Shown here one piece after another: positions 5,483 to 13,078 of a stretch of 22,173 nt of DNA. Origin of the DNA: a virus; IMG/VR virus record IMGVR_UViG_3300027759_000464, positions 1 through 22,173 of that record. One strand, 5' to 3'. Every line of letters starts with the position of its first letter. Positions within the stretch are counted from its first letter, which is position 1. The position numbers and the translations under genes are program-made. The notes beneath the pieces are model-generated. The model saw only the letters and a program-made list of their open reading frames with translations, was not told the DNA's origin and searched no databases.

Positions 5483-7462
5483 TTATGTCACACAATCGAT
5501 TACTTGTTTTACTTCACCTTGGAATTCTGAAGGAGTAATATTACTTATATCAAGTATTGGTCTAAGTATAGCACCAGATCCTGTTTTAGAATTTACTGTG
5601 AGAATAGGTAAATCATTCACGGTAACAGTATTTATTTGAGTTCCAGTATTATTATTTGGAGTCACCTTAAAAATACTTCCATTAGATATCTGAACTGGAT
5701 AATTATTTCCAAAATTATCAGTTACAGTATCAGTTGAAGTATAATTTTCTCCAGCATTTTCAATCAATACATTAGATACAAAATAATTCTGAATTGTATC
5801 AATTGGATAATTTTCACCTTCGGATACAATATAGACAGAATCCACCTCTCCAGCATCATTAATTGTTGCTCTTGCTACAGCACCATATCCTTGATTACAA
5901 CTATCAACTACCTCAACAAATGGTGGGAATCTATATCCAGATCCACCATTGATTATTTTTGTGGAAATAATACTTCCTGTGGATCCAACTATTGCACCTA
6001 ATAACGGAATTGCCGCACATCCAACTCCACCTCCACCAAATATATTAATTGTTGGAGGACTGCATGTGGTAGGTGGTCCCGTATAGCAACCACCAATTTG
6101 ATTTGGAATATTATTTGCGGGACTAAAAATACCAGCAACTCCACTGGCAGTTGATATGGCATTAGAAATGTTTGCATTTTCTAAAATTTTTGCAAAATCG
6201 GGTGAAGGAACATTTGAAGGTCCAGATCCAATTATCCATTGATCAACAATACCATTTGCTTTTCCTTTACTTTGATTACAATCAAACAATCCAACAAGAC
6301 CTTTAATGGCATCAGAACTTGTTCTTAAGAAATTATCAACACTAAATGATGGGAAAAATTGAAGAATCCTCTCAACTCCACCGATTGCAGAACTTAATCC
6401 ATCCGTTATCTTTCCAATGATAACATTAACAAGTGTTCCGGTAAATTGATTTGCTGCACAACTTACAAAATTTTGAACATTATCAACTACAGAATTGAGA
6501 ATTTCTTTAATAACACTTCCCAATCCACTAATAATTGCTCCAGAAACACAAGGAATTGCTTCTTGCAATATTTTCACTGGAGGAACCATTACAGTTTGTG
6601 CTGCTACTCCAGCAGCATGTGCAATTGCAGGACTTTTTGTTGCAAGAAAAACTAAGTCATAAACTTTTTGATATAATAATTTTAATCCTTGATTTAATAA
6701 TGGTGCTAATTTTTTAAATAATTTATTCACCATATTACCAACCAATCCATTACAAATTGCCTGAATTTTATCAGTTACTCGATTAATCTCATTTTTAATA
6801 TTGGTAAAGATTGCAGGTGCTTTAAGTTTATTGATTAAATTACCAACTTCTGTTGAAATTTTATTAACTAGTGTATTACTTACTGTATTTGCAAGTTGAA
6901 TCTTATCACCGATTGCACTGAAGATGCAGATTTCATCATTTGCAATATTTTTTGCTTGTTCCGGTGATACATGTCTTGGAGATTTTTGAGAATTTGCATT
7001 CTGTTCGTTAGTCTGATCCGGTTTTACATCAGTTATGCCATTTGGTTTTACAACTTTAGTAGTATATCCAGTGAATGGTTGAAATGGTCCTGGAGTATTG
7101 GAAGTAAGAACTTGCGAAGTTCTTCCAAAACATCCCATGATTACAGGAGTCTGAGCATTATCAGTATCTAAGAAAAATCCAAAAACAACATCGCCAGGAG
7201 AAATCTTTACACTGGTAGAGTTATTTCCTGCACCTGTTCCTGAAGTTGTTGGAAGTAAACATTGTGCCCAAGGTAAATCTTCATCTGGAAGTTCGGTAAG
7301 ATCATAAGGATGATACCCCATAATACGAACTTTAAATCTATTTCCCCATCCTGCACCATTAATTTGCCCACCATGAGCACTTTCTTGAGGAATCTGTCCG
7401 ATCCACCAACGAAATCCGTCTCTTCCTAGAAAATTAGTCTTAAGTAAGGATTCTTGTATCAT
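5483..7462 (-). CDS. 5: gp5-like baseplate hub protein with OB-fold, no lysozyme domain
   Basis: A 659-residue hub protein. Residues about 18-115 match the N-terminal OB-fold of T4 gp5: RWWIGQIPQE, then GNRFKVRIMGYHPYD, LPWAQCLLPTTSG, GDVVFGFFLDTDNAQTPVIMGCFG, in the same order as in T4 (VRVRVVGLHP, LPWMSVIQP, GTRVYGHFLD, GIVLGTYGG). Residues about 180-400 are mostly amphipathic helix. Residues about 490-660 are Gly/Asn-rich and contain GGSGYRFPPFVEVVD, a segment type seen in cyanophage structural proteins. The T4 lysozyme domain (E-x8-D catalytic pair and GYxTIGIGH) is not present. It overlaps the gp27-like gene by ATGA, and gp5-gp27 form the T4 hub complex. Confidence is high for the OB domain and lower for the rest. 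Confidence 0.8.
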   Translation of the reverse strand: MIQESLLKTNFLGRDGFRWWIGQIPQESAHGGQINGAGWGNRFKVRIMGYHPYDLTELPDEDLPWAQCLLPTTSGTGAGNNSTSVKISPGDVVFGFFLDTDNAQTPVIMGCFGRTSQVLTSNTPGPFQPFTGYTTKVVKPNGITDVKPDQTNEQNANSQKSPRHVSPEQAKNIANDEICIFSAIGDKIQLANTVSNTLVNKISTEVGNLINKLKAPAIFTNIKNEINRVTDKIQAICNGLVGNMVNKLFKKLAPLLNQGLKLLYQKVYDLVFLATKSPAIAHAAGVAAQTVMVPPVKILQEAIPCVSGAIISGLGSVIKEILNSVVDNVQNFVSCAANQFTGTLVNVIIGKITDGLSSAIGGVERILQFFPSFSVDNFLRTSSDAIKGLVGLFDCNQSKGKANGIVDQWIIGSGPSNVPSPDFAKILENANISNAISTASGVAGIFSPANNIPNQIGGCYTGPPTTCSPPTINIFGGGGVGCAAIPLLGAIVGSTGSIISTKIINGGSGYRFPPFVEVVDSCNQGYGAVARATINDAGEVDSVYIVSEGENYPIDTIQNYFVSNVLIENAGENYTSTDTVTDNFGNNYPVQISNGSIFKVTPNNNTGTQINTVTVNDLPILTVNSKTGSGAILRPILDISNITPSEFQGEVKQVIDCVT

Positions 7463-8808
7463 TTATCGTTTGTCCCATGTGCTCCAAAGGTATCTCTAAT
7501 CAACTTCATTGAAGTATATGATGCATCAGTATCGAAATGATGACACAGTTCTTTTATCATATATAGACCACTTTGATCCTTGTCATATTCATCACCACTT
7601 CCTCTTGAGATTTTTGGAAATTTACATTCAATAATATCACCTGCTTTCAAATTTGTATTTGATGGTACAACTATACTTAATGTTTGAGTAAAAAGCATAT
7701 TGTATCTCATAATCGCCTGAGATTGATACCTAAATGGGTCAGAGTTTCCTTCTGTAGAAACACCCACTTCTATCGTACCAATATCCAATACCTGAGTTAA
7801 ATATCTAGTTGGTATGTGACCAAGATCAATATTTGAACTATTCGAAATTTTTGGCAATTCAAGTTTTTGTCCAAGATTTTTTACTCCACTTACATAGTCA
7901 TCAGTTGTAAATATTCCTTTTTGCGGATCAGTGAATTCAAATGTTAGTGGATTATAAAACATACGATAACTTGCATAAGAACCAAGTCTCAATTTTTCAA
8001 GTAGATTTTGATTTCTTTCTGTTTTATAGTTGAGAATATTAAAATCATTATCTCTTTCAATTCCAGATTGATTAACTTGTGTATAGGTATATGATGGAAT
8101 TTTGTCTGGTTTCTGTGAAATTAAACTATCAATAGATCTAAATTGAAATCCTTCTTTCGTTTGATAAAATACAAATCCTGCTGTAGCATCCCCAGAAATT
8201 TCTGCAGGAACACCTTTAGATGCTAACCATACCAAAATTGTAAATGGTTTTCTCAGATTGCCGATGAATCCATATTTGTTTTGTGTTTTATCAATTTTAC
8301 CAATCCTTTCAGTCTTTAGATAATTTTTAAGAATATCTTCCACCGATGCATCAATTGTCGAACTTGTTTTATATTTTTTTCCAACTCTTGAAGTTTCATT
8401 TGTAATTGCTTCTCTTGAAGTTAAATTCAAGAGAAAGGTTTCTCTTTGAGATTCTGTTACAATATCAGTGATACTTGAGACATATAAGTAATCTTTTTGA
8501 TTTGTTGCAAAATCTAATCCAGGATTTTTGTTGGAGTTTCCCGTAATTTTTAATGAAACTCTTTCACCACCACGAAGTGGAAGACCATTATAAATTGATT
8601 GCCTTTCTCCATCAGGATTTCCTTCCTTATCAGGCGCCTGAATAGAATCTCCAGTATTAACTATTCTAATCTTTGCAGTAATTGTTGGTGAAAAAATATC
8701 CTCATAATAATCAATAGATACCGCACCCTGTCTGATATCAGCGGTTCTTTTTTGATCATTTGATTCTATCGTCAATTCTTCATAAATTGACTTATTAATT
8801 GCTGCCAT
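7459..8808 (-). CDS. 27: gp27-like baseplate hub subunit
   Basis: A 449-residue protein with features of the gp27/gpD hub fold. The N-terminal beta domain (SIDYYEDIFSPTITAKIRIVN, residues about 31-52, then GERVSLKIT) resembles the tube-like domain that continues the tail tube. A middle domain has SREAITNETSRVGKKY and SVEDILKNYL. The C-terminus reads SIVVPSNTNLKAGDIIECKFP ... SGLYMIKELCHHFD ... SYTSMKLIRDTFG, the usual ending of hub proteins of this class. It overlaps the upstream gene by one base and the downstream gp5-like gene by four. T4 gp27 is 391 residues and also acts next to gp5. The family call rests on pattern and context, since identity to T4 gp27 is too low to judge by eye. Confidence 0.65.
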   Translation of the reverse strand: MAAINKSIYEELTIESNDQKRTADIRQGAVSIDYYEDIFSPTITAKIRIVNTGDSIQAPDKEGNPDGERQSIYNGLPLRGGERVSLKITGNSNKNPGLDFATNQKDYLYVSSITDIVTESQRETFLLNLTSREAITNETSRVGKKYKTSSTIDASVEDILKNYLKTERIGKIDKTQNKYGFIGNLRKPFTILVWLASKGVPAEISGDATAGFVFYQTKEGFQFRSIDSLISQKPDKIPSYTYTQVNQSGIERDNDFNILNYKTERNQNLLEKLRLGSYASYRMFYNPLTFEFTDPQKGIFTTDDYVSGVKNLGQKLELPKISNSSNIDLGHIPTRYLTQVLDIGTIEVGVSTEGNSDPFRYQSQAIMRYNMLFTQTLSIVVPSNTNLKAGDIIECKFPKISRGSGDEYDKDQSGLYMIKELCHHFDTDASYTSMKLIRDTFGAHGTNDK

Positions 8809-10601
8809 TAGGTATACGCTAACTCTAGAAGTATTTGATTCTTAATAAGACTATTTAACGAATCTTCAATGGGCATTGGTTGAGATCCTCCTCCATCTCT
8901 AGAAATAACTTGTTGTGGTGCAGGTGGTTGACGATCATCCACAACCACAACTTGCTGGCCTTTTTTATTTTGAGCAACAACTGAAGGAACATTTTGACCT
9001 GGTGAAGTTGTTGATGAAACTTGTGCTTGAAGTGGTTTTACTCCACCACCTTTATATTCGAAGTGATATGGATCTCCAGGTATTGATGCATAATACCATC
9101 CATATTTTGATCCATTTTTCATCATCCAATTATATGAATCGCTTCCTGGTTGAAGATCAAGTGCCAATCCTACACCATGTCTAGAATAACCAGGAGTTGC
9201 CCTAACAGAACCTTTTACATTTCTTTGATGTTCATAACTTCTATATGCACTATTAATTGGAATATCTTTACCATATGCTTGTTGTGCTGCTAAAAATGCT
9301 TTTCCTGCAGTTGGATTTAACATTGCATTATTTCCGTACCAATCTTGGTAATCAGCAGTATACGATAATGATTTTATTTTCATCAAATCTGAAGAAGTTA
9401 AAAATCCATTTCCTTTACCTGATTGTGGTTTTGAAGGTGCTGGTTGGGAAGTTAAAGATGAAAAAGTAACAGGTGTTCTTTGCGCCTCTTTAATAATCGC
9501 AGTTTCTTTTGCAGAATACCTTGATCCACCAGCAGTCCAAGATCCTATTCCCTGAGACTTCAATACTGCAAGTCCCATTTTATCTTGATTTTCTGGACTG
9601 AATGTATCAGTTGGTTTTAATCCTGCACCTTTCATTGCAGATGGAAAAGTTATTGGAATAATTTGATATCTTCCTGCCGCATAAACTCCATAATTACTAA
9701 TTTGTGGATTTCTTTTATCCATCACATATGCTTGTCTCTGCATAATTTCACCAAGAGTCATTGATGTTAATTCTTTTCCAACCTTAGTTTTTGAATTTCC
9801 TGTAGATCCAACAATTTTTTCCCCAATTGTTCCCTGATTCATTGCATTATAACTACCACCACTTTCTGGACCAGAAATAATGTCTAATGCTTGTTTATGA
9901 ATCCCAGTTACACTTCCACCAGTAGTATCAGTAGTAGGTGCAGATTGTCTATAATCAGTATTCAATGGTGCAGGTGGTGTTTCTCCAGGGCCTTGCCCAA
10001 GAGGAGTTGTAAGTAACTTAAATCCATCTTCAAATTGATCGTGCATTGCATCAATATTAGCACCCAAATCATCCATTGCACTCTGAACTCTTTTTGATTG
10101 ATCGGTAAAATCAAAATGAGTAATATCTTGGTATACAGCAGAAAGAAGATTTCCAAAATCTTGAAATGTGTTTTTAATATTTGACATAAAATCTGTCAAT
10201 ATTGTATATAAAGATTTAATTCTGATAATTAAATCCTCAATTGCCGTCATAATTGTTGGCAAATTATAAAGTAACCAACCAAGTAAAAGACTAGATGCAA
10301 AATCTAACAATCTACCAAGAAATCCTTTTGTACTATTAGCAATCACTGATCCGGTTCTTTTAAATGCACCACTGATACCAGAAGCTTCAATTATACTTTC
10401 CTGATCTTTTCTCTTAACTGCTTCTTCTCTCATACTACTGAGCATTCTATTTCTAGCAATAGATTCTCTTTTTATTTTTGTTCTATTGAGAGTAACATTT
10501 TTTACATTATCTGCAGATTTTTTTAACTGCCCCATTCCAGTATTGAGGGATTTTATTCCGCCAGATACTTTATCAAAATTAATTGAAGATGTAATCGCCA
10601 T
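8808..10601 (-). CDS. tape-measure-like tail protein with lysozyme-like and M15 peptidase domains
   Basis: A 597-residue protein in three parts. Residues 1-200 are helical, with a basic coiled segment (40-66) and a hydrophobic segment GFLGRLLDFASSLLLGWLLY (93-112), similar to the preceding gene product. Residues about 235-372 look like a lysozyme/transglycosylase-like domain: IISGPESGG with Glu246 as the likely catalytic acid, then GVYAAGRYQIIPITF (305-319). Residues about 400-518 are an M15 peptidase domain: INSAYRSYEHQ (449-458), SRHGVGLALD with His475 and Asp482, and DPYHFEY with Asp510 and His513. His475/Asp482/His513 fit the zinc ligands. Asp510 at H-3 fits the catalytic Asp of phage L-Ala-D-Glu endopeptidases such as T5 endolysin. 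The C-terminus is a Pro/Gln-rich linker. Inferred role: hub or tape-associated peptidoglycan digestion at DNA entry. Confidence 0.75.
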   Translation of the reverse strand: MAITSSINFDKVSGGIKSLNTGMGQLKKSADNVKNVTLNRTKIKRESIARNRMLSSMREEAVKRKDQESIIEASGISGAFKRTGSVIANSTKGFLGRLLDFASSLLLGWLLYNLPTIMTAIEDLIIRIKSLYTILTDFMSNIKNTFQDFGNLLSAVYQDITHFDFTDQSKRVQSAMDDLGANIDAMHDQFEDGFKLLTTPLGQGPGETPPAPLNTDYRQSAPTTDTTGGSVTGIHKQALDIISGPESGGSYNAMNQGTIGEKIVGSTGNSKTKVGKELTSMTLGEIMQRQAYVMDKRNPQISNYGVYAAGRYQIIPITFPSAMKGAGLKPTDTFSPENQDKMGLAVLKSQGIGSWTAGGSRYSAKETAIIKEAQRTPVTFSSLTSQPAPSKPQSGKGNGFLTSSDLMKIKSLSYTADYQDWYGNNAMLNPTAGKAFLAAQQAYGKDIPINSAYRSYEHQRNVKGSVRATPGYSRHGVGLALDLQPGSDSYNWMMKNGSKYGWYYASIPGDPYHFEYKGGGVKPLQAQVSSTTSPGQNVPSVVAQNKKGQQVVVVDDRQPPAPQQVISRDGGGSQPMPIEDSLNSLIKNQILLELAYT

Positions 10602-12356: not shown

Positions 12357-12371
12357 ACTTACACGAAAAAA
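12328..12371 (-). promoter_or_regulatory. putative -1 programmed ribosomal frameshift signal
   Basis: The minus strand carries T TTT TTC at 12371-12365, in register with gp26 codons GCT TTT TTC (residues 236-238), so it fits X XXY YYZ and both slipping tRNAs are tRNA-Phe. A 4-nt spacer GTGT (12364-12361) follows. Then comes a hairpin: AAGTATGGCGCA (12360-12349) pairs with TGCGTCATACTT (12339-12328) in 12 bp with one G.U, around a 9-nt loop. The zero frame ends at TAA 12361-12359. After a -1 slip the frame reads CGT GTA AGT ATG GCG and continues into the 57-codon ORF. The product would be 238 + 3 + 57 = 298 residues. All elements are visible in sequence; actual frameshifting is inferred. Confidence 0.75.
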
Positions 12372-13078
12372 GCAGGAAGTCCCTCCAATACAACTTCACT
12401 TTCAATACCAGTATTTGGATTTTTAATTGAAATATTATGTGAAAGTTTTGGCATTGTTTCAAAGAACTTCTCAATTTCTTTGAATTGCTTTGAACTTAAT
12501 TGCTCAACAAATTCTGAGAGTTCTTTTTTTGAACATTCACTTCCAATCCACGACTCTTCTTCAGAATAAACTTGATCGATACATGCACAAATCAAATCAA
12601 AAGATTCATTGACACCAATTCCCTCTCCACTATTAAAATTATTTTTAATGAATTCTGCCATAGATGGATACTTCATTCTCATAGTTAAAGTATCATCCAA
12701 TTTAATATCTCTATTATGCCCCTCCTGTTCTTGTACTTGAATTTCGTCCAAATTAATACTTACAGGAACTTTTGTTGTATTGTCATCTGGGCATGTAATT
12801 AATATGTCAACAGTCTCACCAACTGATTTTCCACGAATATTCAAGAACAAATATTCAATGTCAAATGTAGCAAGATCATCAATTTTAATTCCTTTGCTTA
12901 AAATGCAGTTTGAAATTACTGTTTTAACTGCATTTGCGATTTGTTTACTATCCTCACTTTCCATTGCAATAATGAGGATCTTTTCTTCTTTAACTAAAAA
13001 TGGGCGATATCTAATGTTCTTCTTTAGTGATGGAATTTCCAACTCATAAATTGGAGTCGCAATCTTTGGTAATGGCAT
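12359..13078 (-). CDS. 26: gp26-like baseplate hub assembly protein
   Basis: A 239-residue protein of the T4 gp26 family (Pfam 'T4 baseplate' type). The start is characteristic: PKIATPIYELEIPSLKKNIR, then YRPFLVKEEKILIIAMES (residues 4-41), followed by IANAVKTVISNCI and FDIEYLFLNIRGKSVGE. It carries no signal peptide or membrane segment. In T4, gp26 is needed for hub assembly and its exact role is unclear. Here it ends GLPAFFV, with the frameshift heptamer in the last codons, so two products are possible: 239 residues and a 298-residue extended form. This suggests a chaperone role like lambda gpG/gpGT. A TATAAATA late promoter lies 26 bases upstream, and AGG precedes ATG 13078 by 5 bases. Family assignment is firm; the chaperone role is inference. 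Confidence 0.85.
   Translation of the reverse strand: MPLPKIATPIYELEIPSLKKNIRYRPFLVKEEKILIIAMESEDSKQIANAVKTVISNCILSKGIKIDDLATFDIEYLFLNIRGKSVGETVDILITCPDDNTTKVPVSINLDEIQVQEQEGHNRDIKLDDTLTMRMKYPSMAEFIKNNFNSGEGIGVNESFDLICACIDQVYSEEESWIGSECSKKELSEFVEQLSSKQFKEIEKFFETMPKLSHNISIKNPNTGIESEVVLEGLPAFFV

Follow-up and report, generated by a model that had tools for sequence, protein, structure and literature searches.

Two replaceable enzyme slots in a probable virion peptidoglycan hydrolase of T4-like cyanophages

Virion proteins with two wall-cutting activities, as well as the shuffling of endolysin domains, are already known. In phi29 gp13, the N-terminal domain cuts glycosidic bonds and the C-terminal domain cuts peptide cross-links at entry (PMC11476376), and the baseplate hub protein gp15 of cyanophage A-1(L) carries lysozyme, endoglucanase and peptidase domains, two of which have demonstrated hydrolytic activity (PMC10966104; PDB 8KEA). 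The tape measure protein of mycobacteriophage TM4, which lies in the tail lumen, bears a peptidoglycan-cutting motif that helps infection (PMC1796659). Here we analyse a protein, Y, encoded on a 22-kb stretch of viral DNA (22,173 nucleotides in full, hereafter the window), which by its gene content is a fragment of a T4-like cyanophage (Kyanoviridae). Our comparison indicates that Y is probably a virion-borne, two-headed hydrolase, built as a rack of two replaceable slots in which one glycan cutter and one peptide cutter are kept.

The glycan- and peptide-cutting domains of phi29 gp13, whose peptidase is of the M23 family, likewise sit on one virion protein; gp13, however, is a podovirus tail-knob protein, uses other enzyme families and is not known to undergo two-slot exchange on a conserved scaffold. 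A-1(L) shares with the window virus a contractile tail and its being a cyanophage, and the lysozyme domain of its gp15 is the second-best structural match of the first Y module, but A-1(L) carries its enzymes as fusions to the hub barrel, whereas Y is a separate protein beside gp27, and A-1(L) belongs to a different phage group. The TM4 tape measure differs from Y in being the established ruler of a siphovirus with one motif. Within the Kyanoviridae, ORF213 and ORF214 of S-SCSM1 occupy the gene positions of Y and its neighbour X, and their M15 module is related to that of Y (E 1e-55), but each of these two proteins carries one module, whereas Y carries both, and a profile of the Y N-terminus gave no match to either at E 0.01. 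A true orthologue is found in S-SRM01, where gp041, annotated 'M23 family metallopeptidase', matches the N-terminal HMM at E 3e-100, has the same neighbours and carries two modules: a divergent lambda-type lysozyme in the first slot and, in the second, an M23 module where Y has M15.

A predicted two-module hydrolase in the baseplate cluster

The window includes genes for thymidylate synthase, PhoH, gp59, gp32, gp53, gp48, gp2- and gp4-like proteins and the tail tube, and its virus most likely infects a cyanobacterium, judging from its relatives. S-SRM01 is the nearest cultured phage and has its genes arranged identically (tail tube, gp26, gp51, X, Y, gp27-like, gp5), Y being adjoined by the gp26/gp51 genes and X on one side and by the gp27/gp5 genes on the other. 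Coordinates are collected in Table 1.

Table 1 Features of the Y locus (window coordinates)
Feature	Position	Strand	Remarks
ORF Y, 597 aa	8808..10601	-	predicted two-module peptidoglycan hydrolase on conserved scaffold; ATG start
Y N-terminal scaffold, residues 1-215	9957..10601	-	conserved, mostly helical, hydrophobic stretch
Slot A, residues 235-378	9468..9899	-	lambda-lysozyme-like module
Glu246	9864..9866	-	presumed catalytic Glu; kept in 33/34 modules
GVYAAGRYQ motif, residues 305-313	9663..9689	-	AGRYQ common to lambda lysozyme
Slot B, residues 389-519	9045..9437	-	predicted M15 (VanY-type) metallopeptidase module
His475	9177..9179	-	predicted zinc ligand; kept in M15 modules
Asp482	9156..9158	-	predicted zinc ligand; kept in M15 modules
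Asp510	9072..9074	-	presumed catalytic base; Asp or Glu in relatives
His513	9063..9065	-	predicted zinc ligand; kept in M15 modules
Y C-terminal tail, residues 526-597	8811..9026	-	conserved, predicted helix at end
ORF X, 526 aa	10603..12183	-	Y paralogue at N-terminus, own variable centre, no hydrolase found
gp51-like ORF, 57 aa	12183..12356	-	baseplate hub assembly catalyst, assigned from its length and position
gp26-like baseplate hub protein	12359..13078	-	
gp27-position tail protein	7459..8808	-	phrog_350, E 1.2e-105
gp5-like central spike	5483..7462	-	T4 gp5 OB domain match only

The original prediction, made from the DNA letters, was that Y joins a lysozyme- or transglycosylase-like domain to an M15 peptidase and could cut both parts of peptidoglycan. 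We found Glu246, His475, Asp482, Asp510 and His513 all where it had placed them, in the contexts ISGPESGGSY (E246), YSRHGVG (H475), LALDLQ (D482) and GDPYHFEY (D510 and H513), along with the GVYAAGRYQ motif, and profile and PDB searches returned lambda-lysozyme and M15 matches beyond chance. The Glu and the zinc ligands, whose loss in close relatives would have spoken against that reading, are kept, and the predicted structures have folds of hydrolases. The pairing of a glycan and a peptide module on one protein of the tail and baseplate cluster is supported, the proposed peptide-bond specificity is not (see below), and the lambda type of the lysozyme and the exchange of modules are additions to what had been seen.

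Folding the whole of Y was uninformative (mean pLDDT 55, with Foldseek and VIA-align matching N-terminal helical stretches only), and the two modules were therefore folded without the N-terminus, as residues 232-520 with a 42-sequence alignment, giving a mean pLDDT of 85.6. A profile of the N-terminal part matched only designed or coiled helical proteins in the PDB, and phmmer with the whole ORF gave no relevant match.

For slot A, a profile of 34 lysozyme modules matched lambda lysozyme in the PDB (3D3D/1AM7) at E 1.5e-8 and, weakly, the A-1(L) hub 8KEA (0.006). The first half of the module model aligned with 8KEA (Z 6.9) and with lambda lysozyme 1AM7 (Z 6.4, 113 residues aligned, rmsd 4.8); these values are middling taken alone, and it is the sequence evidence that assigns slot A to the lambda lysozyme family, with a predicted activity of the GH104 lytic transglycosylase type. 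The one aligned module without E246 is that of a distant relative (L030:5962-7710), which has a lambda-lysozyme-like slot A lacking the catalytic Glu and no slot B, a version that is probably degenerate or structural.

For slot B, Y matched the Pfam families VanY (PF02557; E 2e-6, 28.1 bits, gathering cut-off 25) and Peptidase_M15_3 (24.3 bits, cut-off 23.2), and a profile of M15 modules matched YodJ/LdcB, VanY, VanXY, 1LBU and Ply500 in the PDB, with a best E of 1.1e-11. S473, H475 and D482 are present in 69/69 distinct M15 modules and H513 in 64/64 that reach its column; the zinc-ligand pattern H-x6-D ... H is found in Y as H475, D482 and H513. The second half of the model is closest to VanXYg (Z 11.9, 111 residues aligned, rmsd 2.6), then to VanXYc, VanYB and LdcB types (about 9.6-11), with VanX and hedgehog domains following, supporting a slot B that is an M15 metallopeptidase with a predicted fold of the M15/hedgehog type.

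The specificity originally proposed for this peptidase, L-Ala-D-Glu cutting rather than D,D-carboxypeptidase action, had been read from its D-x-x-H ending. M15C enzymes do carry that Asp (D130 in EndoT5, D114 in EndoRB49; PMC10487532), but of the 69 M15 modules 52 have D at the base position, 6 have E and a few another residue, and since D and E interchange within the family the motif has no discriminating power. Furthermore, the M15C-type Pfam family Peptidase_M15_4 scored 13.8 bits, under its cut-off of 25, and the model is nearest the VanXY, VanY and LdcB folds, with the S. albus DD-peptidase and two M15C enzymes, LysB4 and Ply500, further off at Z 7.7-7.9. Carboxypeptidase-type action is at least as likely as L-Ala-D-Glu cutting.

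Exchange of modules between conserved termini

Alignment of Y with its relatives shows about 215 conserved residues at the N-terminus and about 70 at the C-terminus, with two slots between them. In a set of 52 complete relatives, non-redundant at 95% identity, exactly two modules are present in 51, in 14 combinations. Slot A is of the lambda-lysozyme type in 33 of the 51, Phage_lysozyme2 in nine, SleB/Hydrolase_2 in five, GH73 in two and M23 in two; the Hydrolase_2 (SleB family) matches, which score just under the gathering cut-off, support an additional slot-A type. Slot B holds M23 in 28, M15 in seven, four unnamed types in 14, Phage_lysozyme2 in one and DPBB in one, this last match (0.0025) being below its cut-off.

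The four unnamed slot-B types (B10, L104, B19 and HNHLH; 14/51 proteins) match no Pfam family and were scored as peptidases solely on metal-binding-like motifs. Examples lie at L010:5066-5503, L104:4620-5180 and L019:7168-7650, with motifs such as HDH ... H ... AFDIP and THFHID ... GVDI ... VSHG, the order of which could be that of circularly permuted metallopeptidases. When compared by hhalign with profiles of M15 and M23 and with doubled (permuted) ones, they yielded weak hints only, B19 with M23 (P 6e-4) and L104 with B19 (P 8e-4).

Mapped onto a tree of the N-terminal part, the module type shows a minimum of 17 changes for slot A and 19 for slot B, and the class, glycan or peptide, changed once per slot when the unnamed slot-B types are scored as peptide. 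Wherever both modules fall in named families, one is a glycan and the other a peptide module (35/35 proteins). In three relatives (L082:3453-5417, L096:3465-5426 and L093:3465-5230) the order is reversed, with M23 first and a glycosidase (DPBB, Phage_lysozyme2 or lambda type) second. L082 and L096 are sisters on the tree, and their reversed order fits the single class change per slot.

Closely related pairs reveal recent replacements. L062 and L063 are 99.75% identical over 2368 nt upstream and 99.94% identical over 1643 nt downstream, and the approximately 430 nt between these flanks are wholly replaced, giving slot A of the lambda type in one and Phage_lysozyme2 in the other. In L074 and L076, with flanks 98.7% and 99.0% identical, both slots are replaced, and between the window and L012 or L003 (flanks about 85% and 91%) slot A is replaced by GH73. 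In 14 pairs the N-termini reach 93% identity or more; slot A differs in all 14 and slot B also in 11, a share biased upward because the 95% filter removed clonal pairs. Most of the relatives are metagenome assemblies, in which strain chimaeras could mimic swaps, but identical Y versions recur in separate metagenomes (L074/L077/L078/L080, L076/L079 and L062/L065), which argues against chimaeric assembly. Slots A and B are exchanged independently, each as a unit, between conserved termini.

Could the modules be structural leftovers devoid of activity? The L030 module without Glu, together with the M15 modules of L068 and L108, which lack a D or E base at the usual position, would fit such a reading, but the remaining modules show little or no variation at their catalytic residues, and the repeated arrival of unrelated enzyme families in these slots would be hard to understand unless selection acted on catalysis; we consider inactive modules highly improbable. 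For T4-like cyanophages more generally, we favour, with some reserve, a hypervariable rack of entry lysins in which selection keeps one glycan and one peptide cutter, whatever their family or order.

Virion location, entry and rival readings

Proteins from the same gene positions have been detected in particles. Mass spectrometry of CsCl-purified S-SCSM1 virions found ORF213 and ORF214, the GH73 and M15 proteins at the X and Y positions (PMC9602691), and in CsCl-purified virions of S-CREM2 the X- and Y-position proteins gave 73 and 71 unique peptides, though the authors of both studies note that contamination cannot be excluded. Because these counterparts are found in virions, Y is best read, by analogy, as a hydrolase of the virion that acts when DNA enters.

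The name 'endolysin', which PHROG and RefSeq give to Y relatives, would instead make Y an ordinary lysis enzyme produced late for progeny release, and multi-module endolysins are indeed common. Yet all relatives examined have Y inside the baseplate cluster, beside gp26, gp51, gp27 and gp5, its long helical N-terminal scaffold is unlike that of an endolysin, and Y-position proteins are abundant in purified virions, with the authors' caveat on contamination. On gene position and the virion data of the counterparts we rejected an ordinary endolysin, which we hold to be very unlikely.

No lysozyme domain was detected in the gp5-like ORF (5483-7462), despite its database name 'baseplate hub subunit and tail lysozyme'. 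Since the T4 gp5 lysozyme domain is unrecognisable in this spike, Y probably supplies the entry lysozyme, and a spike with the OB domain only fits a transfer of that function to X/Y. Mechanistically, the helical N-terminal part and the C-terminal tail of Y may anchor the protein in the lumen of the tail or in the baseplate hub, from which it would be released or exposed at tail contraction. The lambda-type module would then cut glycan strands and the M15 zinc peptidase stem peptides, as their families suggest, opening the host wall and letting the tube or DNA through. Slots may be replaced via recombination in flanking conserved DNA or linkers.

X is paralogous to Y at its N-terminus (HMM E about 1e-7) and has a variable centre (~250-430) between conserved ends. 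No hydrolase was recognised in 12 X proteins of Y's clade; in the X of two relatives there are sub-threshold holin-like Pfam matches. Across other Kyanoviridae, hydrolase work is divided differently between the two positions: X is an SLT-type lysozyme and Y an M15 protein in DSL-LC03, X is M15 and Y of the lambda type in ACG-2014d, X is of the lambda type in S-8S53, and a single gene of 864 or 1000 aa replaces the pair in S-CRM01 and S-RSM4. Homology to the Y N-terminus is clear in S-SRM01 and P-SSM2 and weak in the X of S-SZBM1; X/Y equivalence elsewhere is argued from position.

X, Y or both might also act as a tape measure protein with hydrolase modules, as in TM4, its length setting that of the tail. 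Their genes lie near gp26, gp51 and gp27, as would fit a tape measure, and across seven isolates the lengths of X and Y track tail length (r 0.92-0.96; r 0.96 for the summed length, 0.88 without S-CREM2), with tail lengths coming from different laboratories and protein lengths being set partly by the enzyme modules. Multiplying the length of the longer of the two proteins by 0.15 nm gives 170, 140, 140, 134 and 95 nm where the tails are 173, 138, 129, 114 and 100 nm long, respectively. The same rule, however, predicts 235 nm for the 418-nm tail of S-CREM2 (X and Y of 1565 and 1456 aa), X and Y of DSL-LC03 are only 456 and 320 aa long, and S-CRM01 and S-RSM4 have their single gene at this position. 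In the Y studied here only about 215 residues look helical and about 270 form globular enzyme, so that a simple ruler fails for Y. The length correlation is suggestive for the X/Y pair and not for this Y alone, and we regard a tape-measure role as possible but doubtful. It is compatible with Y being a two-headed hydrolase, and the two readings are not exclusive.

Module exchange and phage-host evolution

We found no description of a two-slot exchange of virion lysins in cyanophages in the open-access literature, and the replacement of two complementary modules on a scaffold of the virion is new as far as that literature shows. For annotation, the Kyanoviridae names 'endolysin', 'tape measure', 'M23 metallopeptidase' and 'hypothetical' all refer to one gene position. 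The window phage may also lack a lysozyme in what is called its 'gp5 tail lysozyme'. The 14 natural glycosidase/peptidase pairings on one scaffold make the need for pairing, and the adaptation of modules, directly testable.

Receptor binding is the usual explanation for the rapid diversification of phage tails; in the present case, probable entry enzymes are also swapped freely. The exchange of wall cutters suggests selection by host peptidoglycan chemistry or by competition at entry. If true, passage through the peptidoglycan, beyond adsorption, would be a fast-evolving front between phages and cyanobacteria.
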